A DNA stretch of 64,000 nt from Intestinimonas butyriciproducens (GTDB taxonomy: Bacteria; Bacillota; Clostridia; Oscillospirales; Oscillospiraceae). Where the stretch lies: NCBI RefSeq assembly GCF_004154955.1, contig NZ_CP011524.1, forward strand, positions 2,790,001-2,854,000. The letters are read 5' to 3'. This document shows, one piece after another, positions 34,115 through 58,396 of the stretch; position 1 is the stretch's first letter, and every line of letters begins with the position of its first letter. Below the pieces are notes generated by a model. It was not told the origin of the DNA and did not search any database. It was given only the letters and a program-made list of their open reading frames with translations. A program made the translations under genes and the position numbers.

Positions 34115-35014
34115 CTACAGCTTACTGCAATAATCCACCATGAAGTCTTTGAATATCTGGGCGCTCTTGCACAGATGGCTTTTTGCCCTCCAGTAAATCG
34201 CCTGGGGCCGGGAACAGGGTGGGTTTACAATTGGAATCATGACAGTGCCGTCATACAGCCCGCTGTTCTGTCCCGTCGAAGTGGCAATACAGACCATATT
34301 TTCACTGATGAGCATTCTTGGGCGCAGGATATAGTCGCACTCGATCCTCGATTTCGGCGTAAACCCTGCCTTGAGGCAGAGACTATCGCAAAAATTCCGA
34401 AAAGAGGTATTGTGAGGGGAATTGACAAACCACTCGTCTTTGGCCTCCGCCAGATCGATCCATGCCCGCCCGGCAAATCGGTGAGTCGGCGGAACGGCCA
34501 AAAACACCTGGGAATTAAAGAGAAGCTGGTATTCGAATTCATACTTGGGGTTGATGATCTCCCCTGTCGTGGCAATATAAAAATCAGCGTTCTCCACCAG
34601 GGGGTTCGAGCGGCCGGAATAATCGGAGTTCGTCCCTGTGTCGAACGCGAGCAGGGAGATGGAAATCTCCGGATGTTCAGCCGAAAAGGCGCGCAGCGGA
34701 TTGTTCCAGAGGTTTGGATTGGTCACCGCCACAGAGACGCTTGCTTCGCCCAGATTCTGAGCCTCCTTGATCTCCGTCTCTGCACTGTCCAGCGCATAAA
34801 AGACCTGATCCACATATTTCTGTAATATTTTCCCATAATTGTTCAGCCGGATATTTCTTCCCACCCGGTCAAACAGCTTAACGCCCATTTCCTTCTCCAG
34901 TCTGGCCAGGCTGGAGCTGATGGCGGAGGGAGTCACCAGCATTTCCTGCGCCGTTTTGTTCAGGTGCTGCCGTTTTGCCAACTCGGAAAAGTACTTCAAC
35001 TGCAGCAAGTCCAT
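34115..35014 (-). CDS. LysR family transcriptional regulator (LysR-1)
   Basis: 299 residues. N-terminal winged HTH (MDLLQLKYFSELAKRQHLNKTAQEMLVTPSAISSSLARLE-type arrangement, residues ~1-60) and a type 2 periplasmic-binding effector domain (~90-299). It is divergent from operon A (cyclase, TTT transporter, nitroreductase, BKACE-1) with 182 bases between the starts, the classical LysR layout, so operon A is its likely target and its substrate or an intermediate the likely inducer (inference). GGACGGGAG precedes the ATG. Confidence 0.92.
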   Translation of the reverse strand: MDLLQLKYFSELAKRQHLNKTAQEMLVTPSAISSSLARLEKEMGVKLFDRVGRNIRLNNYGKILQKYVDQVFYALDSAETEIKEAQNLGEASVSVAVTNPNLWNNPLRAFSAEHPEISISLLAFDTGTNSDYSGRSNPLVENADFYIATTGEIINPKYEFEYQLLFNSQVFLAVPPTHRFAGRAWIDLAEAKDEWFVNSPHNTSFRNFCDSLCLKAGFTPKSRIECDYILRPRMLISENMVCIATSTGQNSGLYDGTVMIPIVNPPCSRPQAIYWRAKSHLCKSAQIFKDFMVDYCSKL

Positions 35015-35032
35015 CGTTCTCCCGTCCTTTCA

Positions 35033-35048
35033 TTAAGATATTTCTTAA
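35033..35048. promoter_or_regulatory. Candidate LysR-1 operator
   Basis: Perfect inverted repeat TTAAGA-TATT-TCTTAA, containing the T-N11-A pattern of LysR sites, 19 bases in front of the lysR-1 start and 23 bases upstream of the operon A -35 box. Confidence 0.55.
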
Positions 35049-35070
35049 CAAAACTCGTCAAAAAATGAAA

Positions 35071-35100
35071 TTGATACTTAATATTATCCTGTGTTATGAT
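35071..35100 (+). promoter_or_regulatory. Promoter of operon A
   Basis: TTGATA (35071-35076), 18 bases, TATGAT (35095-35100). Spacing is one base over optimum, which suits an activator-dependent promoter. Confidence 0.65.
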
Positions 35101-35196
35101 GAGCCTGTCAAGAGAAAGTTACAGAAAAGGCCGGTAAGCTTTCCGAAAAAATCGTGCAAAACAGAAAATTCATGGGATAGAGAGGGTATGCTTTCA

Positions 35197-36000
35197 ATGG
35201 AACTGTTGGAAAACTACAGGCTGGTGGATTTGACCGTCCCCATCAAGACCCCGAACTTGGAAGAGATGGACCCGAAACTGGCCACAAGCCTGGCGGCTGA
35301 GATCGAATATCTGGATCACGAGGATACCATCCCCCTGGTCAGCGGATATTTCGGCTGTCGTCCGGAGGATCTGCACGGGGGCTGCGGCTGGGCCACAGAG
35401 CGTGTCAGGACCTCCACCCATGCGGGGACACATGTGGATGCGCCATGGCATTATGCTCCCGCTTCCGGCGGTAAGCCCTCCCGCAGGATTGACGAGTGCC
35501 CCCTAGAGTGGTATTTCGGCCGCGGCGTGGTGCTCAATATGACCCACAAAAAGAGCGGCGAGACCGTCTCTGCCCAGGACGTAAAAGACGCGCTGGCCGC
35601 TCTGGATTATACCCTGAGCTATGGCGACATCGTCTGCATCCGCTATGACACGGACAAGACCTTCGGTACGGCGGCCTATTGGGGCGAGCATCCGGGCCTG
35701 AGCGCGGAGGCCGTACGCTTTATCCTGGATCAGGGCGTCAAAGTTATCGGCGTCGACTCCCCCGGCTTCGATGTTCCCTTTGCCAAGACAAAGGCAAATT
35801 TTGCCGATTCCCACGACAAATCCATCCTCTGGGAGGCACACTGCGCCGGCATCGATTACGACTACTCCCACATCGAAAAGCTGGGCAACCTGGACAAGGT
35901 CCCCGAAAAGGGTTTTTACATCTCCTGTTTCCCCGTCAACCTCTACCAGGGCAGCGCCAGCTGGTCCCGGGTTGTGGCCTTCGTTCCGAAAGATCTATAA
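35197..36000 (+). CDS. Cyclase family metal-dependent hydrolase (PF04199, kynurenine formamidase-like fold)
   Basis: 267 residues. The family signature is intact: HAGTHVDAPWHY (HxGTHxDxPxH), followed by RGVVLNMTHKKSGETVSAQDV and a C-terminal DSPGFDVPFAKT ... EAHCAGID. Known members hydrolyse cyclic or linear amides and cyclic diketones (isatin hydrolase, kynurenine formamidase, dihydrophloroglucinol cyclohydrolase) using divalent metal. As first gene of an operon with a TTT importer, a nitroreductase and a BKACE, a ring-opening step is the most economical reading (inference). The start at 35197 has AGAGGG 10 bases upstream; an in-frame ATG at 35188 is only one base from that site. Confidence 0.85.
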   Translation: MELLENYRLVDLTVPIKTPNLEEMDPKLATSLAAEIEYLDHEDTIPLVSGYFGCRPEDLHGGCGWATERVRTSTHAGTHVDAPWHYAPASGGKPSRRIDECPLEWYFGRGVVLNMTHKKSGETVSAQDVKDALAALDYTLSYGDIVCIRYDTDKTFGTAAYWGEHPGLSAEAVRFILDQGVKVIGVDSPGFDVPFAKTKANFADSHDKSILWEAHCAGIDYDYSHIEKLGNLDKVPEKGFYISCFPVNLYQGSASWSRVVAFVPKDL

Positions 36001-36066
36001 ACCTTCGCGCTACCGTTTATGGCGGCTCCTATCGGTCGCCGCGGAAATATAAGAGGAGGAACTATC

Positions 36067-37095
36067 ATGAAAAAGACTTGCAAACGGCTCTTGGTTTCCC
36101 TGATGGCAGCGGCCACGCTCTTCTCTCTTGCAGCGTGCTCCGGCGGCTCCAACCAGCCCGCTTCCACCGGAACTCCCGCTTCGACTTCTCCGGACGGCGC
36201 CACGCTGGACTTCCCCAAGCAGGACATCACCCTCATCGTTCCCTATGCCGCCGGCGGCACCACCGATCTGCTGGCCCGCGCCCTGACCACTCAGCTGAGC
36301 GATGACCTTGGTGTCAACGTGATCGTACAGAATGTGGAGGGCGGCGGCGGTACCACCGGTACCTCCCAGGCCGTAAACAGCAAGGCCGATGGCTACACGC
36401 TGGCCATCTGCTCCAACGGCGGCTACCTCATCAATCCCGAGATCAACGAAGTGGGCTATACCTGGGAGACCACCACTCCCATCTGCATCGTCTCCGAGAT
36501 TCCCATCGCTCTCGGAGTTGCCGCCAGCAGCCCCTATGAGACCCTGCAGGACCTGATTGACGCGGCCGCCGCCGCCCCCGGCAGCGTGACCTATGTTTCC
36601 CCCGGCGCCAACAGCACCCCCCATCTTCTGGTTGCCGCCGTTGGCCAGCAGGCCGGCGTACAGTGGAACCACTCCCCCAACAGCAGTTCCCCCGCCGCCA
36701 TTGCCGAGCTGATCGGCGGCCACATTGACGCCGTATCCGTCAACCTGCCCACCTTCAAGAGCTCTACCAATGACGGCAGCGTCCGCCTGCTGGCCGTTAC
36801 CGGCGACGAGCGCAACCCGTCTTATCCTGACGTCCCTACCTTTAAAGAGCTGGGCTATGATTTCCCCGCCTCTGTCTACTTCTGCATCGTCGGCCCTGCC
36901 GACATGGACCCCGCTGTGGCGCAGTGCCTTTCCGATGCCGTAGGCGCCGCCATGGAAAATGCCGATGTGCAGGACTCCTTTACCAAGCTGGATTTCCCCA
37001 TGAGCTTCACCAGTTCTGAGGACTTCGCTGCCCGGATCCCGGAAGACTTTGCCCTGTACGAGGGGATTCTGAAGGACCTGGGCGTCCTCTCCTGA
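36067..37095 (+). CDS. TTT-family substrate-binding lipoprotein (TctC/Bug type), operon A
   Basis: 342 residues. Signal peptide with lipobox LAAC (Cys24), then a Ser/Thr/Pro linker and a Bug-type binding protein starting ITLIVPYAAGGTTDLLARAL, with ADGYTLAICSNGGYL and the C-terminal GDERNPSYPDVPTFKELGY typical of the family. It captures an organic acid for the TctAB membrane unit encoded downstream. AAGAGGAGG precedes the ATG. Ligand unknown: Bug proteins bind carboxylates from citrate to aromatic acids. The paralogue in operon B has the same length but clearly different sequence, so the two transporters probably take different acids. Confidence 0.93.
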   Translation: MKKTCKRLLVSLMAAATLFSLAACSGGSNQPASTGTPASTSPDGATLDFPKQDITLIVPYAAGGTTDLLARALTTQLSDDLGVNVIVQNVEGGGGTTGTSQAVNSKADGYTLAICSNGGYLINPEINEVGYTWETTTPICIVSEIPIALGVAASSPYETLQDLIDAAAAAPGSVTYVSPGANSTPHLLVAAVGQQAGVQWNHSPNSSSPAAIAELIGGHIDAVSVNLPTFKSSTNDGSVRLLAVTGDERNPSYPDVPTFKELGYDFPASVYFCIVGPADMDPAVAQCLSDAVGAAMENADVQDSFTKLDFPMSFTSSEDFAARIPEDFALYEGILKDLGVLS

Positions 37096-37226: not shown

Positions 37227-37685
37227 ATGAAGAAGAAATACATGGATTGTATCTCAGGTACGGTACTTATCTTGTTTGCCCTCTGGGGTTGGTATGAGAC
37301 GTCCACCTGGAAAGTATCCGCTGCATCCAGCGGCCTCTCCCCCAGAGTCTATCCTCGCGCGGTATTCACCTGCATTCTCATCTGCGGCGCCATCATCCTG
37401 GGCAGGGCCCTTTTTAAGATGTTCCTTTCCAAGAAGGACTCTGCGGCTGAGCTGGACCGTGTGATCGACATGCACCTGGTAAACGTCGCCGCGGTTACCG
37501 TCCTAACTCTAGTTTATATTTTTGCACTTCGCGCCTTTGGGTTCCTATTCACCACGCCTGTCTTTCTTTTCCTTGCCATGCTGCTGTTCGGTGAGCGGAA
37601 GTGGCTTCGCATGGTGATCATCAGTGTCGCGGGTACTGCTGTGCTGTACTTGTTCTTCGTTCAGATCATGAGCGTACGCTTCTAA
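37227..37685 (+). CDS. TTT-family small membrane subunit (TctB), operon A
   Basis: 152 residues with four hydrophobic segments (about 7-25, 45-65, 83-115 and 128-147). The usual TctB pattern is present: a periplasmic loop with GLSPRVYPRAVFTCIL after helix 1 and a hydrophobic C-terminal half. The ATG at 37227 is preceded by GAAGGGAGA. It lies between the binding protein and TctA, the standard order for this transporter type. TctB function inside the complex is not well defined. Confidence 0.88.
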   Translation: MKKKYMDCISGTVLILFALWGWYETSTWKVSAASSGLSPRVYPRAVFTCILICGAIILGRALFKMFLSKKDSAAELDRVIDMHLVNVAAVTVLTLVYIFALRAFGFLFTTPVFLFLAMLLFGERKWLRMVIISVAGTAVLYLFFVQIMSVRF

Positions 37686-37730: not shown

Positions 37731-39269
37731 ATGGACATACTGCAAAACCTCGCCGCAGGCATTGCCCACCTGGCCAGCCCTGAGGTTTGGCTCTTCATTA
37801 TCCTCGGTGTTGCCGTCGGCATCGTGTTTGGCGCCATTCCAGGTCTGACCGCCACCACTGCACTCGCCATGTTTACCCCCTTGACGTTTGCGCTTTCCCG
37901 CTACCCCGCCTTCGGCTTTCTGCTGGGCATTTACTGCGGCGGCTACTACGCGGGCAGCATCCCCGCCATTCTGCTCAAAACACCCGGCGCCCCTGGCAAC
38001 GCGGCCACCTGTGTGGACGGCTACCCCATGCGGGAACAGGGCTTGGCTGGCAAGGCACTCTCCCTCTCTGTCACCTCTTCCATGATCGGCGGCATTTTTT
38101 CCGCTCTGGTTCTGCTGTTTTTTGCACCGCTGATCGGTAAAATGGGTTACCTGTTCGGCGCGCCCGAGTACTTTGCCATCGCCATGATGGGCATGACTTG
38201 TCTGGCCGGCGTCTCCGGCAAGGACCTCTGCAAGGGCATCGCCTCCGGCCTTCTGGGCCTGTGCATGGCCATGATCGGCCAGGATGCCATCACCGGCATG
38301 ACCCGCTTCACCTTCGGCTCTGTCCAGATGATCTCCGGCATTTCCCTGATCCCCGGCCTCATTGGTCTGTTCGCCGTGACAGAGGTCCTCAATAAGGCGG
38401 AAGAGATCGGCCGGGAGAAGAAGGGGACCATTACCGACTTCAAATTCTATCCCCCCAAACTCGCAGACTATATCCATATCAAATGGATTCTCTTCAAGTC
38501 CTGTGTAATTGGCACCGTCATTGGCGCGATCCCCGGCACCGGCCCCACCATCTCCGCCTGGATGGCCTACAACGAGGCCAAGCGCTCCTCCAAGCATCCC
38601 GAGCTGTACGGCAAGGGCTCTCCGGAGGGCGTCATCGCCTGCGAGTCGTCCAACAATGCGGTGACCGGCGGTGCCATGATCCCGCTTACCACCCTTGGTA
38701 TCCCCGGCGACTCCGTCACCGCCATCCTGCTGGGCGCCCTGATGATCCACGGCATGACCCCCGGCGTGACCTTTGTCACCAATTACGCCGACATGCTGTA
38801 CTTCTTCTTTATCGTCCTCATCATTGCCAATCTGTTTATGTGGGCGTTTGGTCTTTTGGGCAGCAAGCTGTTCCCCTATATCCTCTCCGTCCCCACTCAG
38901 ATCCTGATGCCCTTTGTCATCGTCATGTGTATCTGCGGCGTCTATGCGGCCGCTTCCACCTACTACAACCTGTTCCTCATCGTGATCCTCGGCGCAGTCG
39001 GTTTCCTGCTCATCAAAGCTGGCTTCAGTATGGCTCCTATGGTCCTGGGCTTTGTGCTGGGCAACATCATCGAGAACAACTTCCAGCGGGCCCTGATCGG
39101 GAGCAATATGGATCCCCTCTGCTTCTTCTCCAGCCCCCTAAGCATCGGCATCTGGGTCGCTGCCATCGTGCTGACCACCTGGATGCTGGTCAAAAACAAA
39201 CAGTCCAATACCATGGATGCAAAACTAAACTCTGCCAAAGGTGCGGATACGTCCGCAGAGAAAGACTAA
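37731..39269 (+). CDS. TTT-family large membrane subunit (TctA), operon A
   Basis: 512 residues, about 12 membrane segments. The first conserved family motif is GAIPGLTATTALAMFTPLTF near the N-terminus; the mirrored second one is GAIPGTGPTISAWMAYNEAKR at mid-protein, followed by GVIACESSNNAVTGGAMIPL. TctA is the translocating subunit of a sodium- or proton-coupled, binding-protein-dependent importer. AAGGAGAAAC precedes the ATG and the gene follows TctB by 45 bases. Confidence 0.95.
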   Translation: MDILQNLAAGIAHLASPEVWLFIILGVAVGIVFGAIPGLTATTALAMFTPLTFALSRYPAFGFLLGIYCGGYYAGSIPAILLKTPGAPGNAATCVDGYPMREQGLAGKALSLSVTSSMIGGIFSALVLLFFAPLIGKMGYLFGAPEYFAIAMMGMTCLAGVSGKDLCKGIASGLLGLCMAMIGQDAITGMTRFTFGSVQMISGISLIPGLIGLFAVTEVLNKAEEIGREKKGTITDFKFYPPKLADYIHIKWILFKSCVIGTVIGAIPGTGPTISAWMAYNEAKRSSKHPELYGKGSPEGVIACESSNNAVTGGAMIPLTTLGIPGDSVTAILLGALMIHGMTPGVTFVTNYADMLYFFFIVLIIANLFMWAFGLLGSKLFPYILSVPTQILMPFVIVMCICGVYAAASTYYNLFLIVILGAVGFLLIKAGFSMAPMVLGFVLGNIIENNFQRALIGSNMDPLCFFSSPLSIGIWVAAIVLTTWMLVKNKQSNTMDAKLNSAKGADTSAEKD

Positions 39270-39299: not shown

Positions 39300-40055
39300 A
39301 TGATCCATAACGAAACCATCGATCTTTTGCTCGCTCACAGCTCTGTCCGCCAGTATCAGGACAAACCGGTCTCCCAGGAGGTGGTGGACACCATTTTGAA
39401 CTGCGCGCAGCGGGCGCCTACCTCCAGCTATCTTCAGTCCTATACCATCATTCAGGTGGAAGACAAAGAGAAGCGGGCCGCCCTGATGGAGTTCTCCGGC
39501 GGGCAAAAGTGGCTGGTCAACGCCCCGCTGGTGCTCCTGTTCTGCGGCGATCTGCACCGGGACGACCAGCTCCTCCACCCGGCCGATCAGAACGTACTGC
39601 ACAATGCGGAGCTCTTCACCGTCGCCGTCTCTGACGCCTCTCTGGTGGCCCAGCGGGCCTTTATCGCGGCGCAGGCCCTTGGTCTTGGCGGCGTGATCGT
39701 AGGAGGCGTCCGCAATGAGACCGCCAAAATGGCCCGCCTCTTTGACCTGCCGGAGCTGGTATTCCCGCTGTACGTGCTCTGCCTGGGCTATCCTGAGTCC
39801 GTTCCCGTGCAGCGCCCACGCTTCGAGACCCGGTTTATCCACGCGGTGGACCGCTATCCCGCCCTCCCAGATCCCGACGCGCTGGTTGCCTATGACAACG
39901 AGGTCCGCGAATACTTCCTCAAGCACACCAGCGATCCCAACGAGTTCGGCTGGATCGCCCGCGGACAGCACGCCATCTCCTCCAAGCCCCGGTATGCGGT
40001 GGGCGAGTACCTGAAGGAGGCCGGCTTCCTGACAAAGACGGAGCCCTCTGTGTAA
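39300..40055 (+). CDS. Nitroreductase-family flavin oxidoreductase (NfsA/FRP-like)
   Basis: 251 residues. The FMN-binding opening HSSVRQYQDKPVSQEVVD and the AQRAPTSSYLQSYTIIQV segment identify the NfsA/FRP group; GLGGVIVGGVRN and LPELVFPLYVLCLGYPE are the second FMN region. These dimeric enzymes reduce quinones, nitro groups or activated double bonds with NAD(P)H. Inside an operon for organic-acid uptake and beta-keto acid cleavage it may reduce an enone or quinone-like substrate before ring hydrolysis (inference). AGAAAGGAAC precedes the ATG. Confidence 0.88.
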   Translation: MIHNETIDLLLAHSSVRQYQDKPVSQEVVDTILNCAQRAPTSSYLQSYTIIQVEDKEKRAALMEFSGGQKWLVNAPLVLLFCGDLHRDDQLLHPADQNVLHNAELFTVAVSDASLVAQRAFIAAQALGLGGVIVGGVRNETAKMARLFDLPELVFPLYVLCLGYPESVPVQRPRFETRFIHAVDRYPALPDPDALVAYDNEVREYFLKHTSDPNEFGWIARGQHAISSKPRYAVGEYLKEAGFLTKTEPSV

Positions 40056-40122: not shown

Positions 40123-40965
40123 ATGGGCAAAAAACTCATCATCACCGCGGCACTCTGCGGGGCGGGCACCATGAAATCCCAGACGCCCTACGTGCCCGTC
40201 ACACCCGAGGAGATCGCCGCCGACGCCGTGGCCGTCGTGAAGGCCGGCGCCTCCGTCATCCACATCCACGTCCGGGACGACGAGGGCAAGAACACCATGG
40301 AGACCGAGCGCTTCTGCCACGTGGTCAACCTGGTTCGGGAGGAGCTGGCCAAGGCCAATCTGGACGCCGTCCTCAACCTCACCTCCTCCGGCTCCAAGTT
40401 CTCCGAGGATATGCGCCTTGCCCACCTGCCCATCCTCAAGCCGGAGATGTGCTCCTACGACCCCGGCTCCATGAACTGGGCCAACAGCTACATCTTTGCC
40501 AACAGCCCCTCCTTCCTGGAGCGCCTGGGCACCCTCTGCCAGAAGGAGGCCATCAAGCCTGAGTGCGAGGTCTTTGACGGCGGCATGATGGGCAACATCG
40601 CCTACTATATGAAGAAGGGCTTCCTCGCCACCCCCGTCCACTATCAATTCGTGCTGGGCGTGTCGGGCGGCATGCCGGGCAACGCCGACTCGCTGGCCTA
40701 TCTGCTGCCCAAGATGCTCCCCGGCTCCACCTGGTCCATCACGGGCATCGGTAAAGACCATCTGCCCTGCATGCTGCTGGGCCTGGCCGAGGGCTGCGAC
40801 GGCCTGCGGGTGGGCCTGGAGGACAACATCTTCCTGGAGAAGGGCGTCCTGGCCACCAACGCGCAGCTGGTGGAGCGGGCCTGCAAGCTGGGCGAGCTGG
40901 CCGGCCGCACCATCGCCACCGCTGCCGACGCCCGGGAGATCCTCCACCTCACCAAGCACGTTTAA
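40123..40965 (+). CDS. Beta-keto acid cleavage enzyme BKACE-1 (DUF849)
   Basis: 280 residues. The zinc ligands of the family are visible as H47 and H49 in SVIHIHVRD and E233 in VGLEDNIFL; VNLTSSG-type (LNLTSSGSKF) and ECEVFDGGMM motifs complete the TIM barrel. BKACE enzymes condense a beta-keto acid with acetyl-CoA to yield acetoacetate and a new CoA ester. The acid specificity is set by active-site residues I cannot model. It is the last gene of operon A, 67 bases after the nitroreductase gene, with AAAGGAG upstream. Its DNA is ~98% identical to BKACE-2 at 50877-51719; only four residues differ. Confidence 0.95.
   Translation: MGKKLIITAALCGAGTMKSQTPYVPVTPEEIAADAVAVVKAGASVIHIHVRDDEGKNTMETERFCHVVNLVREELAKANLDAVLNLTSSGSKFSEDMRLAHLPILKPEMCSYDPGSMNWANSYIFANSPSFLERLGTLCQKEAIKPECEVFDGGMMGNIAYYMKKGFLATPVHYQFVLGVSGGMPGNADSLAYLLPKMLPGSTWSITGIGKDHLPCMLLGLAEGCDGLRVGLEDNIFLEKGVLATNAQLVERACKLGELAGRTIATAADAREILHLTKHV
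40123..40965 (+). repeat. Long direct repeat, left copy (with 50877-51719)
   Basis: By eye about 20 base differences over 843 bp against the copy at 50877-51719, mostly third codon positions. The flanks just outside the genes do not match, so the repeat is the coding sequence alone. The copies are 10.75 kb apart in direct orientation. Confidence 0.93.
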
Positions 40966-41035
40966 AGACTCCAACCTCCCTGAGCGCGGATACAAGCCGT
41001 GTTTTTTCCATCCTTCTGCTTTATTTTCCTCCCAA

Positions 41036-41083
41036 CAAGGAGAGCGGGACAGCCTTAAGGCTGTCCCGCTCTCCTTGTTTTTT
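41036..41083 (+). terminator. Terminator of operon A
   Basis: Perfect 19-bp stem (CAAGGAGAGCGGGACAGCC and its complement) with loop TTAA, followed by TTTTTTG. It also lies at the 3' end of the convergent thiolase gene. Confidence 0.96.
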
Positions 41084-41088
41084 GTCCG

Positions 41089-42261: not shown

Positions 42262-42312
42262 GATTTTTCCTCCTTCAATTTCTGTCAATCGAGAACCCCG
42301 CAAGGGGGGGAC

Positions 42313-44510: not shown

Positions 44511-44635
44511 TTGTTTTAATCCCGGTTATTTTTGTTCCTCCTGTCAAATTTTCAACCTTTTGCCCTGCCGAAATTCCGTCCTTCCAAGGCTTTTCTCTTT
44601 TTTATTCATGCAATCCATGTGCCAATTCTCCATTT

Positions 44636-47930: not shown

Positions 47931-47997
47931 CCCTTTTTACCAGAGATAAAATTCCATTTCATCTTTTATATTCCATTTTAGCAAAGGAGTGACCGCA

Positions 47998-48669: not shown

Positions 48670-49320
48670 ATGGATGCCAGAACATTGATCGTCACCCGGG
48701 CCGCCCGCTTCTTTCATGACGGCGACCTGGTGAACCTGGGGATTGGGATGCCCACGCTGGTGGCCAACCATCTGCCGGAGGGCGTCAACATCACGCTCCA
48801 GTCGGAAAACGGCTTCATTGGGCTGGGGCCCACGCCCGAGGAAGGGCACGTGGACAAGGACATGGTAAACGCCGGAGGACAGCCGGTGACCATCCTGCCC
48901 GGGGGCGTCTGTTTCGACAGCGCCACTTCCTTCGGCCTGATCCGTGGGGGCCACGTGGACGCCACGGTGCTTGGGGCCCTGGAGGTGGACCAGGAGGGCA
49001 ACCTGGCCAACTGGATGATCCCCGGAAAAAAGGTGCCCGGTATGGGCGGAGCCATGGATCTGGTAGCCGGGGCCAATTTGGTCATCATCACCATGGAGCA
49101 TTGCAACAAGAGCGGCGCGCCCAAGATCCTGAAAAAATGCACGCTGCCGCTCACCGCAGCCCATGAGGTGGACTATATCGTCACCGAACTGTGCGTGCTC
49201 CACCGCATGGAGGAGGGTCTGGTCCTGGAGGAGCTGGCCCCCGGCGTCACTGTGGAAGAAGTCCTGGCAAAGACGGATGCCGAACTCATCGTTCCCACCC
49301 GGATCGGGAGCATGATCTGA
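48670..49320 (+). CDS. 3-oxoacid (acetoacetate-type) CoA-transferase, beta subunit
   Basis: 216 residues. The catalytic glutamate is in LQSENGFIGLG, preceded by NLGIGMPTLVANHL and followed by GGHVDATVLGALEVDQEGNLANWMIPG, all typical of beta subunits (AtoA/ScoB). It lies 15 bases after the alpha subunit with GAAAGGAGG between. The stop codon is one base from the start of the symporter gene. Confidence 0.92.
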   Translation: MDARTLIVTRAARFFHDGDLVNLGIGMPTLVANHLPEGVNITLQSENGFIGLGPTPEEGHVDKDMVNAGGQPVTILPGGVCFDSATSFGLIRGGHVDATVLGALEVDQEGNLANWMIPGKKVPGMGGAMDLVAGANLVIITMEHCNKSGAPKILKKCTLPLTAAHEVDYIVTELCVLHRMEEGLVLEELAPGVTVEEVLAKTDAELIVPTRIGSMI

Positions 49321-49321
49321 C

Positions 49322-50876: not shown

Positions 50877-51719
50877 ATGGGCAAAAAACTCATCATCACC
50901 GCGGCACTCTGCGGGGCGGGCACCATGAAATCCCAGACGCCCTATGTGCCCGTCACACCCGAGGAGATCGCCGCCGACGCCGTGGCCGTCGTGAAGGCCG
51001 GCGCCTCCGTCATCCACATCCACGTCCGGGACGACGACGGCAAAAACACCATGGAGACCGAGCGCTTCTGCCACGTGGTCAACCTGGTCCGGGAGGAGCT
51101 GGCCAAAGCCAATCTGGACGCCGTCCTCAACCTCACCTCCTCCGGCTCCAAGTTCTCCGAGGATATGCGCCTTGCCCACCTGCCCATCCTCAAGCCGGAG
51201 ATGTGCTCCTACGACCCCGGCTCCATGAACTGGGCCAACAGCTACATCTTTGCCAACAGCCCCTCCTTCCTGGAGCGTCTGGGCACCCTCTGCCAGAAGG
51301 AGGCCATCAAGCCTGAGTGCGAGGTCTTTGACGGCGGCATGATGGGCAACATCGCCTACTACATGAAGAAGGGCTTCCTCGCCACCCCCATCCACTATCA
51401 ATTCGTGCTGGGTGTTTCGGGCGGCATGCCGGGCAACGCCGACTCGCTGGCCTATCTGCTGCCCAAGATGCTCCCCGGCTCCACCTGGTCCATCACGGGC
51501 ATCGGTAAAGACCATCTGCCCTGCATGCTGCTGGGCCTGGCCGAGGGCTGCGACGGCCTGCGGGTGGGCCTGGAGGACAACATCTTCCTGGAGAAGGGCG
51601 TCCTGGCCACCAACGCGCAGCTGGTGGAGCGGGCCTGCAAGCTGGGCGAGCTGGCCGGCCGCACCATCGCCACCGCCGCCGATGCACGGGAGATCCTCGG
51701 CCTGACCAAACACATCTAA
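50877..51719 (+). CDS. Beta-keto acid cleavage enzyme BKACE-2 (DUF849)
   Basis: 280 residues. Zinc ligands H47 and H49 (HIHVRD) and E233 (GLEDN) as in BKACE-1, from which it differs at only four residues: E54 to D, V172 to I, H276 to G and V280 to I. AGGAGG precedes the ATG at 50877. It sits between the symporter and the 3-hydroxyacyl-CoA dehydrogenase, so the acetoacetate it makes can be taken by the CoA-transferase of the same operon. The near-identity implies that operons A and C feed substrates of the same acid class, or that copy number gives dosage. Confidence 0.95.
   Translation: MGKKLIITAALCGAGTMKSQTPYVPVTPEEIAADAVAVVKAGASVIHIHVRDDDGKNTMETERFCHVVNLVREELAKANLDAVLNLTSSGSKFSEDMRLAHLPILKPEMCSYDPGSMNWANSYIFANSPSFLERLGTLCQKEAIKPECEVFDGGMMGNIAYYMKKGFLATPIHYQFVLGVSGGMPGNADSLAYLLPKMLPGSTWSITGIGKDHLPCMLLGLAEGCDGLRVGLEDNIFLEKGVLATNAQLVERACKLGELAGRTIATAADAREILGLTKHI
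50877..51719 (+). repeat. Long direct repeat, right copy (with 40123-40965)
   Basis: Partner of the left copy. Recombination between the two would delete or duplicate 40.1-51.7 kb, including the thiolase, the sigma-54 activator, transporter B, the CoA-transferase and the symporter. Confidence 0.93.
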
Positions 51720-51745: not shown

Positions 51746-52705
51746 ATGAGGCTGGAATCGATCAAACGGATCGCCGTTTTGGGCGCGGGCACCATGGGGC
51801 CCGGCATCGCCCAGCGCTACGCCATGAGCGGGCGGAGCGTCAATCTTTACGACATCAGTGAGCAGGCCCTGGAAAAGGCCAAGGTCATGCTCCGCACCAA
51901 TCTGGACACCTTTGTGGAGGAGGAGCTCCTCACCGCAGAGGAGGCCGACGGTGTCTTTGCCCGGGTCAGCTTCACCGCCGACCTGGAGGCCGCACTGAAA
52001 GACGTGCAGTATGTCCAGGAGACGGTGGCGGAGAAGCCCGCCATCAAGACCTCTGTCTTTGCCCAGGTGGACGCCCTGCTCCCCCCGGAGGCCATCTTGG
52101 TCTCCAACACCTCTTCGCTCAACCCCTTCACACTTATCCCCGAGGGCCGCGCCGCCAATTTTGCCGCCGCCCACTGGTTTGCGCCCCCTCACATCATTCC
52201 TCTGGTGGAGGTCGCCAGGGATGAGCGCACCTCTGAAGAGACCATGGAAACGGTCCTGGCCCTTCTCAAGGAGTGCGGTAAAACGCCTGTGCGTATGGAA
52301 AAATTCGTACCCGGCTACATCATCAACCGCATCCAGATCCTGCTTAACACCGAGGTATTTTATCTGCTTGGAAACGGTGTATGTACGCCGGAGCAGTTGG
52401 ATCTGGCCGTCAAGGCCAGCCTGATGCCCCGCGGCATGGTACTGGGCCTGGTCCAGCGCTACGACTTTACCGGTCTGGACATCAGCGCCAACAACATCAT
52501 CAACGCAAGCTATGTCATGCCGGAGACCAGCAAGCACCCCGCCGTCCTCTTCGATCATGTGGATAAGGGCGAGTTGGGCGTCAAGACCGGCAAAGGCTTC
52601 TACGACTACAGCGGACGCGATCCCGCCGAGGTCTGCAAAAAGAGGGACAAACTGCTCTTCCAGGTTCTGAAGGCCGTGGGTCCCCTGATCGACGAGACGA
52701 TCTGA
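51746..52705 (+). CDS. 3-hydroxyacyl-CoA dehydrogenase (3-hydroxybutyryl-CoA dehydrogenase-like)
   Basis: 319 residues, slightly longer than clostridial Hbd (~282). Rossmann motif GAGTMG at 13-18, catalytic Ser in NTSS (121-124), His143 in AAHWFAPPH (the family usually has HFFNP), Glu in PLVEV, and the C-terminal GKGFYDYSG. The replaced HFFNP motif suggests a related but distinct substrate, as in L-carnitine or lambda-crystallin-type members. In this operon reduction of acetoacetyl-CoA to 3-hydroxybutyryl-CoA is plausible. GGAAAGGAG precedes the ATG; last gene of operon C. Confidence 0.9.
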   Translation: MRLESIKRIAVLGAGTMGPGIAQRYAMSGRSVNLYDISEQALEKAKVMLRTNLDTFVEEELLTAEEADGVFARVSFTADLEAALKDVQYVQETVAEKPAIKTSVFAQVDALLPPEAILVSNTSSLNPFTLIPEGRAANFAAAHWFAPPHIIPLVEVARDERTSEETMETVLALLKECGKTPVRMEKFVPGYIINRIQILLNTEVFYLLGNGVCTPEQLDLAVKASLMPRGMVLGLVQRYDFTGLDISANNIINASYVMPETSKHPAVLFDHVDKGELGVKTGKGFYDYSGRDPAEVCKKRDKLLFQVLKAVGPLIDETI

Positions 52706-52877: not shown

Positions 52878-53729
52878 TTAGGTATCGGAGGCCTCGGTCT
52901 TTCTCATGCCGCGGGGCTTCATGCCCAGCATGATCCGGGCCTCATCGGGGGTGGCCACCTCGCGGCCCACCTCTTTGGCGATCCGCACGGCGCGCTCCAC
53001 CAGCTGCACGTTGGTGGCCTTGACGCCCTTATAGAGGTACTGGTTGTCTTCCAGACCCACGCGGACGTGGCCGCCCGCACCCATGGCCCAAAGGATGGTG
53101 CTGACCTGCATTCCGGCTACACCAGCCAGGTTCCACTCAGCTCCCTCCGGAAGCATGGTGAGCAGATATCCCAGTTGAGACATCGTCGCGGGCATGGTGT
53201 TTTTCACACCCATAACAAAGTCAAAGTACAGAGGGCCGGTCAGCAGGCCTTCCTTGTGGAGGTTGATGGCGTTGCTCATCATGTTGGTGTCGAACACTTC
53301 GATCTCGGGCTTGATGTTGTGCTCCAGCATGAATTTCGCCTGCGCGGTATAGTATTCCACGCGGTTTACATAAGCTCCTGTGGGGAAGGCGCTGGACCCG
53401 GGACAATAGCTGGCCATCTCCGGGAGGCAACGCAGGGCGTTGTCCCGGTCCTCCTCACTGGCGTCATACCGTCCTCCGGTGGAGAGCTGGACGATGAGAT
53501 CGGGGCACTTGGCTTCCAGGGTCTCCTTGATCTCGCGGAACTGTTCTATATCATGAGAATTCTTCCCGGTCACACGGTCCCTCACATGGACATGGACGAC
53601 GGCGGCGCCGGCCTCATAGACCGCGATGGCGTCGTTGACGATCTCATCCACAGTGATGGGGAGGGCCGGAAATTTCTCCTTGCTGGGGACGGAGCCCGTC
53701 AGGGCACAGGTGATAATTACTTTTTTCAT
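52878..53729 (-). CDS. Beta-keto acid cleavage enzyme BKACE-3 (DUF849)
   Basis: 283 residues. Same zinc motif HVHVRD (H46, H48) and C-terminal RVGLEDNQYLYKG, but otherwise far from BKACE-1/2 (for example QLSTGGRYDASEEDRDN in place of NLTSSGSKFSEDM), so it probably accepts a different beta-keto acid. AGAAGGGAAAACC lies before the ATG. It follows the AtoE-like transporter gene by 52 bases on the same strand. A short-chain fatty acid transporter next to it fits release or uptake of acetoacetate or the cleaved acid. Confidence 0.94.
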   Translation of the reverse strand: MKKVIITCALTGSVPSKEKFPALPITVDEIVNDAIAVYEAGAAVVHVHVRDRVTGKNSHDIEQFREIKETLEAKCPDLIVQLSTGGRYDASEEDRDNALRCLPEMASYCPGSSAFPTGAYVNRVEYYTAQAKFMLEHNIKPEIEVFDTNMMSNAINLHKEGLLTGPLYFDFVMGVKNTMPATMSQLGYLLTMLPEGAEWNLAGVAGMQVSTILWAMGAGGHVRVGLEDNQYLYKGVKATNVQLVERAVRIAKEVGREVATPDEARIMLGMKPRGMRKTEASDT

Positions 53730-53781: not shown

Positions 53782-55137
53782 TTACAGGACCAGGAAACAG
53801 ACCGAGATCACAATGCCGGACACAATGGCAAAGGTGAAGCAGTAGCCCATGATGTCCTTGATCCCCAGGCCGGCCAGGGACAGCGCGGGCAGCGCCCAGA
53901 AGGGCTGAATCTGGTTGGTCCAGGAGTCGCCCCAGCACAGCGCCATGGCTGTCTTGGCAAAGTCCGCGTTCAGAGTGTCTGCGGCCTGCATCATGATGGG
54001 GCCCTGCACGGTCCACTGTCCGCCGCCGGAGGGAATGAAAATGTTGACGAGACCAGCAGCCCAGAAGGTGAAGAGGGGCAGCGTCTTGGCGGAGGAGATG
54101 CTGACAAAGAAATTGGCCAGGATATCCACAAGGCCGGAATTTTTGACCAGGCCCATAATGGCGGCGTAGAACAGGAACTGCAGGGTAATACCGGCGGCGG
54201 ATTTGATGGCCTCGCCCATGGCGCGGGAATAGTTGCCGGGGGTCTTGTGGCACAGGGCGCCGGCGGCAAAGAACATCAGCACGACCTCATTCAGGCCAAA
54301 GTTCAGGGTGCGCTTGGTCCAGAAGTACCACACCATGTAGGCCACAACGATCAGCGCGGGGATGATAGCCAGAGGGGCAAAGTTATCCAGCTTCTCAGCG
54401 AAGTCCATGTCCTTCCAGCTTTTAGCCGCATGGGCCTTTTCCTCGGCCTCTTCCCGGGCGGCGTCGGCATCCAGCACAGCCTGCTGAATCTCGATGCATT
54501 CGCTCTCCCTGGGACAGATCAGGGCGTATGTAATCAGGCCGGAGATCAGCACCAGGACCGTGATGATCAGGTTCCAGGAGCTGTACAATGTGGCAGTGGT
54601 GGGGATGATATCGCCTACGATCTCATAGACGATGCTGCTCTCAGCAGTGACCTCCAGAGGAATGGAGGAGGAGGGCCCGCGGATGATGTTGCCGGCATGG
54701 CAGGCTGCGATCAGGACCGCATAGTCCACCTTGACGCCTCTGCCCTTAAAGACACGGGCGATCTCCTTGGCCACCAGAGCGCCGGCGATCATGCCAAGGC
54801 CCCAGTTCAGGTAAGTGGCGATCATGCCCACCAGGGCTACCGTCAGGGTGGCGGCAACGCGGTTCTTGGGCAGGTAAGCGATGGAGCGCAGCAGCTTCTT
54901 CACCGGTTTGGAGCTGGCCAGGCAGTGCCCGGTCACCAGCACCAGCACCATCTGCATGGTGAAGCTGAGCAGGGAATACATGCCCTGAGACATGTACTTG
55001 ACGCAGTCCAACAGACTGCTGTCCGTGAGCCCCCAGGCCCCCAAAAAGGCGACCAGGGTCAGAAGCAGTGCCAGAACATATGCGCTGGGCAGCCACTTTT
55101 GCACAAACTTACAAAGCGCTTTCGAAATTGCTCTCAT
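53782..55137 (-). CDS. AtoE-type short-chain fatty acid transporter
   Basis: 451 residues, about 12 membrane segments. Family features: KALCKFVQKWLPSAYVLALLLTLVAFLGA at the start, RGPSSSIPLEVTAESSIVYE, FIPSGGGQWTVQGPIMMQAADTL and WGDSWTNQIQPFWALPAL near the end. AtoE proteins move acetoacetate and other short-chain acids. The start at 55137 (AAGGAGAGAC upstream) is preferred over an open frame to 55218. It lies between a VOC gene and BKACE-3 on one strand, a likely three-gene unit. No convincing promoter is seen in the 144-base gap to the VOC gene. Confidence 0.93.
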   Translation of the reverse strand: MRAISKALCKFVQKWLPSAYVLALLLTLVAFLGAWGLTDSSLLDCVKYMSQGMYSLLSFTMQMVLVLVTGHCLASSKPVKKLLRSIAYLPKNRVAATLTVALVGMIATYLNWGLGMIAGALVAKEIARVFKGRGVKVDYAVLIAACHAGNIIRGPSSSIPLEVTAESSIVYEIVGDIIPTTATLYSSWNLIITVLVLISGLITYALICPRESECIEIQQAVLDADAAREEAEEKAHAAKSWKDMDFAEKLDNFAPLAIIPALIVVAYMVWYFWTKRTLNFGLNEVVLMFFAAGALCHKTPGNYSRAMGEAIKSAAGITLQFLFYAAIMGLVKNSGLVDILANFFVSISSAKTLPLFTFWAAGLVNIFIPSGGGQWTVQGPIMMQAADTLNADFAKTAMALCWGDSWTNQIQPFWALPALSLAGLGIKDIMGYCFTFAIVSGIVISVCFLVL

Positions 55138-55281
55138 GTTTTTGTCTCTCCTTCTCTCTTCATTTTGAGTCCATGCTCTGCGTGGGATCTTCTCTCGATT
55201 GACTCGCTTAGAGAACAAACATTTTGAAGCAAAGGTATGGGATGGGGCGCAAGGATATTGACATGCTGTGCGTTTGAAAGA

Positions 55282-55692
55282 TTACTGTTCTGTCTTCTGG
55301 ACCAGTTCGCTGATTACACCGTGTCCTGCTTCCGCGTCAATGTAGTTGACAAGCGTATGATTGGCGCCCGGCCTTGGCACAGGATTTCGGAGCCCAACTC
55401 CTATGCTGCGAAAATATCTCATATCCTGCTCCAAGTCGTCCACCTCATACGCAATATGATATAGGCCTTCCCCCCTCTCCTCTATAAACCTGTTGACAGC
55501 CGCAAAGTCCTCAATCCCCTGCACCAGCTCGATTTCCAGGTCTCCACAGCCAAAAAACGCCGCTTTGCAGCCCGCCGCCTCCACGATCTGCGTGCCATAG
55601 TAGGGGAGCCGCAGGATATCCCGGTAGAAGGAAATTCCCTTGTCTATATCTTTTACGGCGATGGCGATGTGGTTGACCTTTTTGATTGGCAT
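55282..55692 (-). CDS. VOC-family protein, methylmalonyl-CoA epimerase-like
   Basis: 136 residues with two beta-alpha-beta-beta-beta modules. The metal ligands of the family are visible: H9 in VNHIAIAV, the ELVQG glutamate, H in GLYHIAYEV and a C-terminal glutamate in GHGVISELVQ. Length and pattern match methylmalonyl-CoA epimerases. An epimerase beside BKACE-3 could invert a 2-methyl- or 3-hydroxyacyl-CoA; glyoxalase or lyase roles are alternatives. GAGGGAG precedes the ATG at 55692. Confidence 0.85.
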   Translation of the reverse strand: MPIKKVNHIAIAVKDIDKGISFYRDILRLPYYGTQIVEAAGCKAAFFGCGDLEIELVQGIEDFAAVNRFIEERGEGLYHIAYEVDDLEQDMRYFRSIGVGLRNPVPRPGANHTLVNYIDAEAGHGVISELVQKTEQ

Positions 55693-55772
55693 GTTCTCTC
55701 CCTCTTCCATGGTCACTTTTCCGTGCCCCGACAAAATCCCGCCTTTTCCTTTTCTGCCAAAAGGCCTTAATG

Positions 55773-55821
55773 TTTCTGTTGTCTGGGCAAGCCCAGACAA
55801 CAGAAATGGCCGGCCATTTCT
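55773..55821. promoter_or_regulatory. Two overlapping perfect palindromes
   Basis: First: 16-bp arms (55773-55788 and 55791-55806; arm ending GTTGTCTGGGC) with a 2-base centre. Second: AGAAATGGCC-GGCCATTTCT (55802-55821), no spacer. They share AGAAA, so only one can form at a time in RNA. No T-tract follows on either strand. Candidate operator for LysR-2 or an attenuator in the VOC leader. Confidence 0.55.
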
Positions 55822-55876: not shown

Positions 55877-55905
55877 TTGTATTATATCTTTCTCTCCGGT
55901 ATAAT
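55877..55905 (+). promoter_or_regulatory. Promoter of lysR-2
   Basis: TTGTAT (55877-55882), 17 bases, TATAAT (55900-55905). Confidence 0.75.
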
Positions 55906-56086
55906 TCAAATATCAATTTAACACGCTTACCATGCTAAAATAAGATAGTTCTCTCCACCTGCATTTTACATCACCCCGCCTCTTTTTCCTTTCTTGCTTT
56001 TTCCTTTCTTGCTTTTTTCTTTCATCTACTATAGAATCATTTTCATAGATTTATCTATTCAGATACAGGACAAGTATGGTGATCAT

Positions 56087-57013
56087 ATGGATTTTAAGTA
56101 CCTGCAAATCTTTGTTGCCATCGCGGATGCCGGTACGCTGACCGCCGCCGCTGAGAATCTGCACATCGCTCAGTCCGCCCTGTCCCGGCATCTGCGAAAC
56201 ATTGAGGAGGAGTATGGCGCTCAACTCATGCTTCGGGGCTCCCGGCAGATGAAGCTGACCGACGAGGGCCGGATCCTGTACGTATACGCCAAGAAAACGC
56301 TTTTGTGGTCAGACTCCATCCACAAGGAGATCCACGACCTCTCCGTGGGTCTGTCCGGGACCTTGCGCCTTGGCACCGTTCCGAATCTGTTCAACGTGTG
56401 GCTGGAGACAGTCTTTCCTCGCTTTCATAAAGACTTTCCCAACATCAAATTCGATATCTATGAGGAGCGGTCCGATATCCTGATCCAGCGGCTGTGGGAC
56501 GGACTCTGTGACATCGCCCTCATCCGGACCCCCGTCAAGCTGAGCGGGCTGGATGTATTTTACACTGCGCCCGACCCTCTTGTGGCCTGCTACCGCGGCG
56601 AGCAGTACTTTCAGGGGTGCGGGCCTAAGATCCGGCTGCAGGATCTGGAGGATATCCCCCTGTTTGTTTCCCGCTTCTGGAACACCCGGTTTTCTCCGCT
56701 CTGCCTCTCCGCCGGTTTCACGCCCAACATTGTGGCGCTGAATGAGCGGATCTCCACCAACTTGCTGTGGGCAAAGAACATCCCGGGCTGCGCCATCGTT
56801 CCGGTCCGCACGGTAAAGCAGTTTGGTTTTCCGGACTTTCACTATAAGATCATTGACGAGCCCGGCCTGGATTACCCCAATGCCATCGTCACTGTAAAGG
56901 ACCGGTATCTCCCGGTCGTGGCTCAAAACTTCCTGGAGTACTGCCTTCCCACGGTAGCGGCCCTTCAGGCGGAAGCCGCCGCCTCGTCGGAAGAAAAGGA
57001 GCTGTATCCCTAG
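56087..57013 (+). CDS. LysR family transcriptional regulator (LysR-2)
   Basis: 308 residues. Winged HTH at the start (MDFKYLQIFVAIADAGTLTA, then AENLHIAQSALSRHLRNIEE) and an effector-binding domain from ~90 (TLRLGTVPNLFNVWLETVFP). It is divergent from the VOC-AtoE-BKACE-3 unit and convergent with the CoA-transferase gene, so it probably controls the former (inference). The ribosome binding site is weak (GGTGAT). The stop TAG lies in the loop of a terminator hairpin, so the last eight codons are part of the stem. Confidence 0.92.
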   Translation: MDFKYLQIFVAIADAGTLTAAAENLHIAQSALSRHLRNIEEEYGAQLMLRGSRQMKLTDEGRILYVYAKKTLLWSDSIHKEIHDLSVGLSGTLRLGTVPNLFNVWLETVFPRFHKDFPNIKFDIYEERSDILIQRLWDGLCDIALIRTPVKLSGLDVFYTAPDPLVACYRGEQYFQGCGPKIRLQDLEDIPLFVSRFWNTRFSPLCLSAGFTPNIVALNERISTNLLWAKNIPGCAIVPVRTVKQFGFPDFHYKIIDEPGLDYPNAIVTVKDRYLPVVAQNFLEYCLPTVAALQAEAAASSEEKELYP

Positions 57014-57036
57014 AGGGATACAGCTCCTTTTCTTCC
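56989..57036. terminator. Bidirectional terminator overlapping the lysR-2 stop codon
   Basis: Perfect 23-bp inverted repeat (56989-57011 and 57014-57036) with a 2-base loop; GC core GGAGCTGTATCCCT flanked by GAAGAAAA and TTTTCTTC. It serves lysR-2 and the convergent CoA-transferase gene. Confidence 0.92.
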
Positions 57037-57052
57037 GCATAGCAGATCCTGT

Positions 57053-58396
57053 TTACTTTCGGTTGCTTCTGCGCCAGATCTTCATCTTCTCCGCCTCCTG
57101 GATCAGTTCCTCCCGGAAATCCGGGTGAGAAACGGAAATGATCCGCTCGGTCCTCTCCCAAGTGGAGCAACCCTTCAAGTTTACCATCCCATATTCCGTC
57201 ACCAGATGGTGGATGTTGGTCCTGGTGTCCGTCACAATGGACCCATGGCTGAGCATCGGTACGATGCGGGAATGGAGCAGCCCCTCCTTGTCCTGATAGG
57301 TAGAGGAGCAGCAGATAAAGCTCTTGCCTCCCTTGGAGAGGTAGGCGCCCAGCACAAAGTCCAGTTGTCCGCCAGCCCCGCTGATATGCTTGGTGCCGGA
57401 GGACTCCGCATTCACCTGCCCGAACAGGTCTACATCCACCGCATTATTGATGGAGATGAAGTTGTCCAGTTGGGAGATCACTCTCACGTCGTTGGTGTAA
57501 TCCACCGGGGAGGCCATACAGGACGGATTGTTGTTTAAGTACTCATACAGCTTCTTTGTGCCCGCGCCAAAGGCATAGGCCTGACGGCCCCGGTCCACAT
57601 TCTTTTTCATACCGGTGATCTTTCCCGCGCGGGCAATATCTACAAAGGCGTCCACATACATCTCCGTGTGAACACCCAGATCTTTCAGATCTGACTGGGC
57701 GATCATGCTTCCCACCGCGTTCGGCATCCCCCCGATGCCCAATTGGAGGCACGCCCCGTTGGGGATCTCCGGCACGATCAGCTCCGCCACGGCTTTCTCC
57801 ACCTCAGTGGCGGGTCCGCCCGCACCCAGTTCCGGCATGGGCGGGTTCTCCCCCTCCACGATGTGGGTCACCTGGCTGATATGGACCGCCTCCTGGCTTC
57901 CCCCCAGGCACCGTGGCATGTTCCGATTTACCTCCACGATAATGACTTCCGCCACATCGCACAGCGCCGCCATATGGGATGCATTGGGCCCGAAATTGAA
58001 GAATCCGTGCTCATCCATGGGTGCCACCTGGAACATGGCCACGTGGACGGGCGCCAGATGTTCCCGGTAATAGCGGGGCAGCTCAGAATAGCGCAGGGGA
58101 ATATAATAGGTCCCTCCCTCGGCGATCATCTTCCGCTCCACGCCGGACATATGCCACGAGTTCCAGGTAAAGTGCTCCGGCGCGTCCGGCACCGACATGA
58201 TGGCGGGCCGGTGAAAGATGATGCCGCCCCGCACCTTCACATCGTGCAGCTCTTCATACCGGGCAGCCAGCGCCCGATCCAGAGCCTCGGGCGTCCCGGT
58301 GCACCAGCCGTAGTCCACCCAGTCCCCCGACCGCACCTCTTTGACGGCCTCCGCCGCCGTGGTCAATTTCTGCCGGTAAAGTTCCGTTTGCTCCAT
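57053..58396 (-). CDS. Acyl-CoA:acetate CoA-transferase, probably butyryl-CoA:acetate CoA-transferase
   Basis: 447 residues, the length of clostridial But and 4-hydroxybutyrate CoA-transferase. Family I fused-subunit features: [20 protein letters not shown], the catalytic Glu in [20 protein letters not shown], and [17 protein letters not shown]. The motif [13 protein letters not shown] is shared by both But and AbfT, so I cannot separate them; butyrate release is favoured by the surrounding acetoacetyl-CoA genes. GGGAGGCACGACT precedes the ATG at 58396. Own promoter and terminator, so it can be expressed independently of the island. Confidence 0.88.

Follow-up and report, generated by a model that had tools for sequence, protein, structure and literature searches.

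The question raised by this locus of Intestinimonas butyriciproducens is whether three genes of the BKACE family, whose products convert a beta-keto acid plus acetyl-CoA to acetoacetate plus a CoA ester, belong together with the surrounding importers and CoA-transferases to one pathway that leads to butyrate. The analyzed stretch of DNA, hereinafter the window, comprises 64,000 nucleotides (positions 2790001-2854000 of the single 3,224,506-base contig that makes up the genome; coordinates are those of the window unless a locus is named). A sequence-only reading of the window had proposed a single 24-kb catabolic island at 34115-58396, and all the genes that it named were recovered with family models (PF, TIGR and NF, each assessed against its own cut-off) as 22 genes at 34115-58417; the start codons of the listed coordinates are our choice. 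The region is nevertheless a set of separately controlled units rather than one 24-kb pathway, and it is probable that operons for acid catabolism, each under its own regulation, have accumulated here around a common BKACE core. The convergence of acids on acetoacetyl-CoA and butyrate, which had also been proposed, is compatible with the presence of AtoDA, a thiolase, a terminal butyrate CoA-transferase and several importers, and is not supported as a single 24-kb route.

Units of the island and their control

Three units can be delineated, and the transcription of each as described here is what gene order would predict. Unit A, on the plus strand, consists of a cyclase-family hydrolase of the isatin hydrolase/DPGC superfamily (35197-36000; PF04199, 116.3 bits; best PDB match isatin hydrolase A, 44.5 bits) with a visible HxxxHxD motif, which we take to be the family motif, followed by the solute receptor TctC1 (36067-37095; PF03401, 173.9 bits; the PDB matches include a terephthalate-binding protein, 123 bits), TctB1 (37227-37685; PF07331), TctA1 (37731-39269; PF01970), a nitroreductase-family flavoenzyme (39300-40055; PF00881; NF008033 207.3 bits, below the cut-off of 223) and BKACE1 (40123-40965; PF05853); the gene for the regulator LysR1 (34115-35014, minus strand; PF00126/PF03466) is divergent from this unit. 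Unit B, also on the plus strand, encodes TctB2 (44796-45263; PF07331), TctA2 (45277-46788; PF01970) and TctC2 (46837-47865; PF03401), so that both tripartite tricarboxylate transporters (TTT) of the window are complete, followed by AtoD and AtoA, subunits A (47989-48654; TIGR02429 234.5 bits, cut-off 128.5) and B (48670-49320; TIGR02428 315.8 bits, cut-off 243.55) of 3-oxoacid CoA-transferase, an SSS symporter (49322-50821; PF00474), BKACE2 (50877-51719; PF05853, 304.9 bits) and a 3HCDH-fold dehydrogenase (51746-52705; PF02737/PF00725). In the opposite direction to unit B run the genes for a sigma-54 activator with a PAS domain (42313-44412, minus strand; PF00158 228 bits, PF00989 24.5 bits) and the thiolase (41089-42303, minus strand; PF00108/PF02803; TIGR01930 425.5 bits, cut-off 240.55). 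Unit C, on the minus strand, comprises a VOC-family protein (55282-55800; PF13669), an AtoE-type transporter (53782-55218; PF02667 (SCFA_trans) 421.6 bits; TIGR00366 413.6 bits, below the cut-off of 575.75) and BKACE3 (52878-53729; PF05853), which belongs to a different clade; LysR2 (55994-57013, plus strand; PF00126/PF03466) is divergent from this unit, and the butyryl-CoA:acetate CoA-transferase (57053-58417, minus strand; TIGR03948 852.5 bits, cut-off 674.8) is convergent to LysR2. The VOC-family protein is the one previously termed epimerase-like; the family holds, and a role as the epimerase of a propionate route was rejected on its score of 84.1 bits with the methylmalonyl-CoA epimerase model TIGR03081, below the cut-off of 114.95.

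Apart from the separate regulators, the control signals also set the units apart. Between the activator gene and TctB2, two outward-facing promoter-like sites, one toward the activator and the thiolase (44610-44624, minus strand) and one toward unit B (44636-44650, plus strand), match exactly TGGCAYNNNNNTTGC, which we take to be the -24/-12 sigma-54 consensus. With one mismatch or fewer, the pattern occurs in the window at chance level (11 found, 9.9 expected); four of the 11 sites are exact, two of them back to back in this intergenic region and the remaining two at 14638 and 22530. The convergent units A and B are parted, between BKACE1 and the thiolase, by a terminator-like hairpin with a 20-bp stem and a T tail (41034-41079; folding z = -6.8 for 40940-41120), and terminator-like sites as a class show no excess in the window (9 found, 13.9 expected). 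The separate promoter-like sites, together with a relative of unit A that lacks BKACE in another genome (see below), weaken the single-pathway reading.

The copied BKACE and the dehydrogenase beside it

Membership of the three window proteins in the BKACE family, as claimed from the sequence alone, is borne out by PF05853 scores of 303-308 bits (cut-off 24.8) and by the intact residues H46, H48, E143, R226, E230 and D231 (Kce numbering). These residues have catalytic or zinc-binding roles in Kce. With NF053538, the model for the 3,5-dioxohexanoate BKACE, the three proteins give 185, 185 and 179 bits (equivalog cut-off 430). What had gone unremarked is how alike BKACE1 and BKACE2 are: 824 of their 843 bases are the same, as are 276 of the 280 residues. 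A third copy, with a protein 96% identical, is located 1.9 Mb away on the contig (928504-929340, at 0.93 Mb; locus L011) in the vicinity of another sigma-54 activator, TctB, TctA, a ketopantoate-reductase-like gene and TctC. The ketopantoate-reductase-like gene (L011:10337-11374; TIGR00745 173.6 bits, cut-off 141.35) adjoins this third BKACE, where unit B has the 3HCDH-fold gene. The DNA likeness of the three copies is limited to the open reading frame (845, 832 and 812 bp at 97.8, 95.3 and 96.2%), TctA2 and its homologue in the L011 operon share 76% DNA identity, and the three copies form one clade (support 100/99). Thus, as far as these alignments indicate, the BKACE reading frame was either recently copied or is held alike by conversion, which suggests that the same reaction is served in three operons and that three importers, in operons that otherwise differ, converge on one beta-keto acid.

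Altogether, the genome encodes eight BKACEs, three of them in the window. Elsewhere, a Trp-type (TAL-like) BKACE is found with a sigma-54 activator, a 3HCDH-like gene and an AtoE-like gene (L009:14213-19501); another, 56% identical to BKACE3, with an OYE-type flavin oxidoreductase, assigned by its sequence, and an AbrB-family protein (PF05145; L009:2132-6014); and a further BKACE operon contains a 3HCDH-like gene, AtoDA, a thiolase and two similar proteins in tandem (L012:4464-15320), the first of which, the one scanned, has a crotonase domain (PF00378) and no NCBIfam match at 1e-30. The nearest relative of BKACE3 elsewhere (L165, 59%) is in no clear gene context.

The dehydrogenase of unit B had been called a 3-hydroxyacyl-CoA dehydrogenase; it is probably not the Hbd of the butyrate pathway. 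With the Hbd model NF004474 it scores 188 bits, far below the cut-off of 408, and two other genes of the genome exceed it (434 and 432 bits). In alignment with C. butyricum Hbd, the window protein has T, E, L and G in place of K50, K54, K56 and N221, respectively, and retains S117, H138, E150 and N188; none of the eight residues is lost from either true Hbd. Among 26 BKACE-linked dehydrogenases, including that of the window, Lys56 is absent from all 25 readable rows and Asn221 from 26/26, and S117 and H138 are each kept in 25/25 and N188 in 26/26. The same pattern, loss of Lys56 and Asn221 with Ser, His and Asn kept, is reported for CsTfD, which oxidizes a free acid (PMC10470551, partial text). 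Because the CoA-binding residues are lost, although the true Hbds keep them, the window enzyme probably oxidizes a free 3-hydroxy acid just before BKACE2. Its usual label as a CoA enzyme would hide such a route, and the loss of CoA-contact residues beside a BKACE gene suggests a simple rule for finding pathways of this kind.

The co-location of these genes appears meaningful because the arrangement recurs in other genomes. Gene lists for the comparison loci were obtained with a home-made caller that relies on amino-acid composition and on BLAST against reference proteins and may miss genes; these reference proteins came in part from L013, L017, L019, L068 and L069, where matches of 100% are self-matches, and the loci, 5.9-20.8 kb long, in several cases stop at contig ends. 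In the BKACE tree, which covers rows of at least 250 aa (the 152-aa L094 was left out), the clade of BKACE1 and BKACE2 has 15 rows (support 100/98) and spans two phyla, with Fusibacter, Propionivibrio and Oleispirillum. The nearest other clade, also of 15 rows (98/97), lies entirely within the family of the window genome, and the fork joining the two has support of 93/84. All 12 clade loci outside this genome at 69% identity or more (L013-L019, L068-L072) were compared; a dehydrogenase of the window type is present in 7/12, a thiolase in 8/12, SDR in 5/12, cyclase A or B in 5/12, a TctA2-like TTT in 2/12 (L014, L017), a ScpC-like CoA-transferase in 4/12, methylmalonyl-CoA mutase in 2/12 and AtoDA in 0/12. 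For the neighboring clade, 16 loci were picked by hand, not at random, and 14 (L125-L138) remain after removal of L139 and L140, which belong to other clades. Here the dehydrogenase was found in 11 of 14 (cut off in L130), thiolase in 8, cyclase B in 9, AtoDA in 9, SDR in 6 and DMSO-reductase-family genes in 4. One of these operons (L126) combines a transhydroxylase relative, whose large subunit, the one tested, matches pyrogallol hydroxytransferase at 781 bits (next PDB match 234), with thiolase, SDR, cyclase, dehydrogenase, BKACE and AtoDA. Accordingly, unit B has as its core a lower pathway that recurs and that in some relatives stands beside phenol-type ring-processing genes, and the L125-L138 operons may encode a trihydroxybenzene pathway with a Gly-type BKACE. 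Neighborhood comparison had been put forward as a check on the island; the dehydrogenase-BKACE core recurs, and relatives of units A and B were seen together in G042 alone.

The cluster is accessory. BKACEs of the clade are present at 69-75% in five other genomes of a family sample of 200. In an order sample of 394 (1e-105), G042 is the only further genome with such a gene, and a class sample of 391 (1e-110) yields this genome and no other. In a phylum sample of 398 searched with the dehydrogenase at 1e-90, two further genomes were found; these two loci (L144 and L145, from two other families) contain a window-type dehydrogenase, SDR, a BKACE 38-42% identical to BKACE3, several DMSO-reductase-family genes and TRAP transporters. 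In the same-genus genome G074, which has a relative of the Trp-type BKACE at 93% (L163) as well as two genes of the KCE type, no match to BKACE2 exceeds 48%. G074 is syntenic with the window up to the gene at 28943-30079, and past 30079, over 40 kb compared, only the window gene at 31954-32334 is matched (75%), about 28 kb on. Only the left flank is readable for an insertion because the right-flank gene lacked good matches: in five same-genus genomes and G042 there was one 45% match over 313 residues (G561), the others being short and weak. The stretch 30001-36000 is low in GC (0.46-0.53) and includes a TraX-family gene (33204-33956).

Candidate substrate and rival explanations

The genes, the promoter-like sites, the identity of the copies, the residue patterns and the recurrent neighborhoods are observed; from them we infer, as follows, all substrates and all reactions of this organism, and also the sequence of steps. 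Under sigma-54 control, TctABC2 of unit B would bring in an acid; the 3HCDH-fold enzyme would turn a free 3-hydroxy acid into a beta-keto acid, and BKACE2 would transfer its two-carbon end to acetyl-CoA, giving acetoacetate and an acyl-CoA. AtoDA would then put CoA on acetoacetate and the thiolase would yield acetyl-CoA, with Hbds from other parts of the genome and the 57053-58417 CoA-transferase taking acetoacetyl-CoA plus acetyl-CoA on to butyrate. Unit A, under LysR1, would probably import a cyclic acid, reduce it with the nitroreductase, open the ring with the cyclase and deliver the same beta-keto acid to BKACE1; the nitroreductase as an ene or ring reductase is a guess. The operon at 0.93 Mb, which has a TctABC set, a ketopantoate-reductase-like gene and a near-identical BKACE of its own, would feed in likewise, and unit C (VOC-AtoE-BKACE3) would take a different acid. 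The preferred beta-keto acid would be 3-oxoadipate, cleaved to succinyl-CoA and acetoacetate, with butyrate and possibly propionate as products and three importer operons converging through BKACE cassettes that copying or gene conversion keeps near-identical. In this complete form the scheme is tentative and is less likely than not to hold in all of its parts.

The choice of 3-oxoadipate derives from the neighbors in related loci, methylmalonyl-CoA mutase and ScpC, which favor succinyl-CoA as the CoA ester. ScpC-like or mutase genes are present in 6/12 clade loci, two of these six being loci that supplied the reference proteins, and in 0/14 loci of the neighboring clade (L125-L138). ScpC is above its model cut-off in L013, L071 and L072; the L015 copy, truncated where the contig stops, was recognized through BLAST alone. 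In L068 and L069, BKACE is in line with genes for methylmalonyl-CoA mutase, epimerase and decarboxylase, and the mutase and epimerase of L069 are above their cut-offs. This genome has mutase genes as well (L122; 598000-612000), with adjoining decarboxylase-like and epimerase-like genes identified by BLAST and a true Hbd alongside.

Several observations weigh against this scheme. The decarboxylase subunits of L069 are below their cut-offs, one of them narrowly, and the link between mutase and BKACE comes from two genomes of one family. Because AtoDA is absent from all 12 clade loci, ScpC may simply activate acetoacetate there. The curated model for the Cupriavidus-type 3-oxoadipate BKACE (NF053568) gives 193 and 194 bits with BKACE1 and BKACE2 (266 with BKACE3), below its equivalog cut-off of 350, although a clade outside this model may have the same activity. 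The likeness of BKACE1 and BKACE2 may reflect very recent copying rather than a common substrate. The remaining points concern unit A. Its cyclase has matches in 12 of 300 family genomes, this one included (1e-25), at 76% in G042 and 37-45% in the others. G042 contains a unit A-like set (LysR1 at 71% in the same place, cyclase 76%, TctC1 71%, TctA1 82%, nitroreductase 71%; no TctB was called, possibly missed by the caller) in a stretch where no BKACE was found, and its clade BKACE is on another contig, with SDR and two cyclases (L072). Units A and B may therefore be metabolically unconnected; apart from this genome, relatives of both were seen together in G042 only. Among cyclase loci fetched from seven other genomes (G042, G030, G133, G115 at one of its two places, G032, G399 and G061; G602, G056, G151 and G078 were left out), BKACE lies within about 5 kb of the cyclase in four (G030, G133, G115, G399), and none was seen in the stretches from G042, G032 and G061 or in that around the second cyclase of this genome (L095). 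Besides G042, a single nitroreductase-like gene was seen, a distant match (68 residues at 32%) that lies some 7 kb away from the L095 cyclase.

The same G042 set without BKACE, the separate regulators, promoter-like sites and hairpin, and the break of synteny with G074 past 28943-30079, with one further window gene matched, would also be expected if unrelated operons, for unrelated acids and without a common substrate, had ended up as neighbors in a variable region. We consider this rather unlikely, given that BKACE1 and BKACE2 differ at 4 of 280 residues and each is in an operon with its own importer.

A lower probability is assigned to a mere rearrangement of the known fermentation of phloroglucinol and other trihydroxybenzenes (PGR, DPGC, TfD, TAL, thiolase, CtfAB). 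The window holds a cyclase, a dehydrogenase of the free-acid type, BKACE, thiolase and AtoDA, and the L126 operon of the neighboring clade combines the same functions with a transhydroxylase relative and SDR. The window is not assigned to this pathway because it has no close SDR, no transhydroxylase match and a Gly-type BKACE. The L126 transhydroxylase, used as a query without a positive control, has no match in this genome; the L126 SDR has matches of 26-33% only, CsPGR itself not having been a query; and no SDR is among the listed window genes. At the position of Kce Glu14, published TAL has Trp (PMC10470551, partial text), whereas BKACE1 and BKACE2 have Gly, and BKACE3 Val. Gly is also found in 12/12 clade loci and in 13 of the L125-L138 loci (Ala in one); Trp, as in TAL, is characteristic of the group of L009, L090 and L094; the Trp-type BKACE of this genome sits elsewhere (L009). 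For the dihydrophloroglucinol cyclohydrolase of this pathway, the window cyclase, a PF04199 member, would be a candidate.

L-carnitine degradation in Pseudomonas relies on a carnitine dehydrogenase and a dehydrocarnitine-cleaving BKACE, the same enzyme families, which is the sole point in favor of this route. It was rejected as highly improbable, since the window dehydrogenase scores 98 and 120 bits with the L-carnitine dehydrogenase models (cut-offs 414 and 592).

Cleavage of 3-keto-5-aminohexanoate in lysine fermentation, although the founding activity of the BKACE family, is the least probable of all, given that the window BKACEs score 271-289 bits with the lysine KCE model NF052387, under its equivalog cut-off of 382, that the amine-binding Glu14 (PMC10470551, partial text) is replaced by Gly or Val, and that a BKACE above this cut-off (408.9 bits) is located elsewhere in the genome among KamA-, Kdd- and Kal-like genes. 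That locus (L010:4861-11132, approximately 2200860-2207131), with genes named from sequence, is likely a lysine fermentation cluster.

Relation to known systems

A search of titles, abstract openings and term counts, with most subscription papers outside its coverage, found no pathway that pairs TctABC with BKACE and nothing on the substrate of the nitroreductase; the founding BKACE paper is Bastard 2014, as cited in PMC4922564. For the route from inositol to propionate, the start of the abstract of PMC8355322 names 3-oxoacid CoA-transferase, and the term count gives no 'beta-keto acid'. Fermentation of quinate or shikimate was considered on account of the clade BKACE of Propionivibrio dicarboxylicus (L019); the papers found deal mainly with shikimate production. 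The chemistry proposed here would be known; new, on the sequence evidence, would be the transporters, a possible first ring-reducing step and the near-identical copied BKACEs. If the accretion of operons around a common BKACE core is the correct reading, the uptake of organic, perhaps plant-derived cyclic, acids would be linked to butyrate, and the presence of nearly unaltered copies of a single enzyme in three operons makes a common substrate directly testable.

That no described pathway has this gene set, as stated previously, is too strong. The phloroglucinol cluster of Clostridium scatologenes (PGR-DPGC-TfD-TAL), which yields acetate and butyrate, shares with the window a cyclase, a 3HCDH-fold dehydrogenase lacking CoA-binding residues, BKACE, thiolase and CoA-transferase, and the dehydrogenase-BKACE core probably works, by analogy, like the lower half of this described fermentation. 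As far as the accessible text of PMC10470551 goes, the window differs in the absence of the SDR reductase, the presence of the nitroreductase, TTT importers and several operons, and a copied BKACE with Gly rather than Trp in the pocket.

The L125-L138 operons resemble the window in the dehydrogenase (46-53% in 11 of the 14) and AtoDA (in 9), with BKACE at 51-55%, and differ in SDR (6/14), DMSO-reductase-family genes (4/14) and the lack of any TTT seen. In the deoxyribonate pathway of Pseudomonas simiae, a dehydrogenase and a BKACE likewise act on a free 3-hydroxy acid, with acetoacetate and an acyl-CoA as proposed products; unlike the window, an SDR takes the place of 3HCDH, and MFS importers, a lactonase and glycerate kinase are involved (PMC6365646, partial text). 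Kce of lysine fermentation shares family and catalytic residues with the window BKACEs, which have lost its amine-binding Glu14. Closest to unit B are the TctABC-BKACE-dehydrogenase-thiolase operons of Fusibacter paucivorans (L014) and Oleispirillum naphthae (L017), where no AtoDA and no unit A were seen and the latter has Ptb-Buk-like genes, named from sequence and unlike the window; BKACE is 69-74%, the dehydrogenase 63-69% and TctA 59-61% identical to those of unit B.

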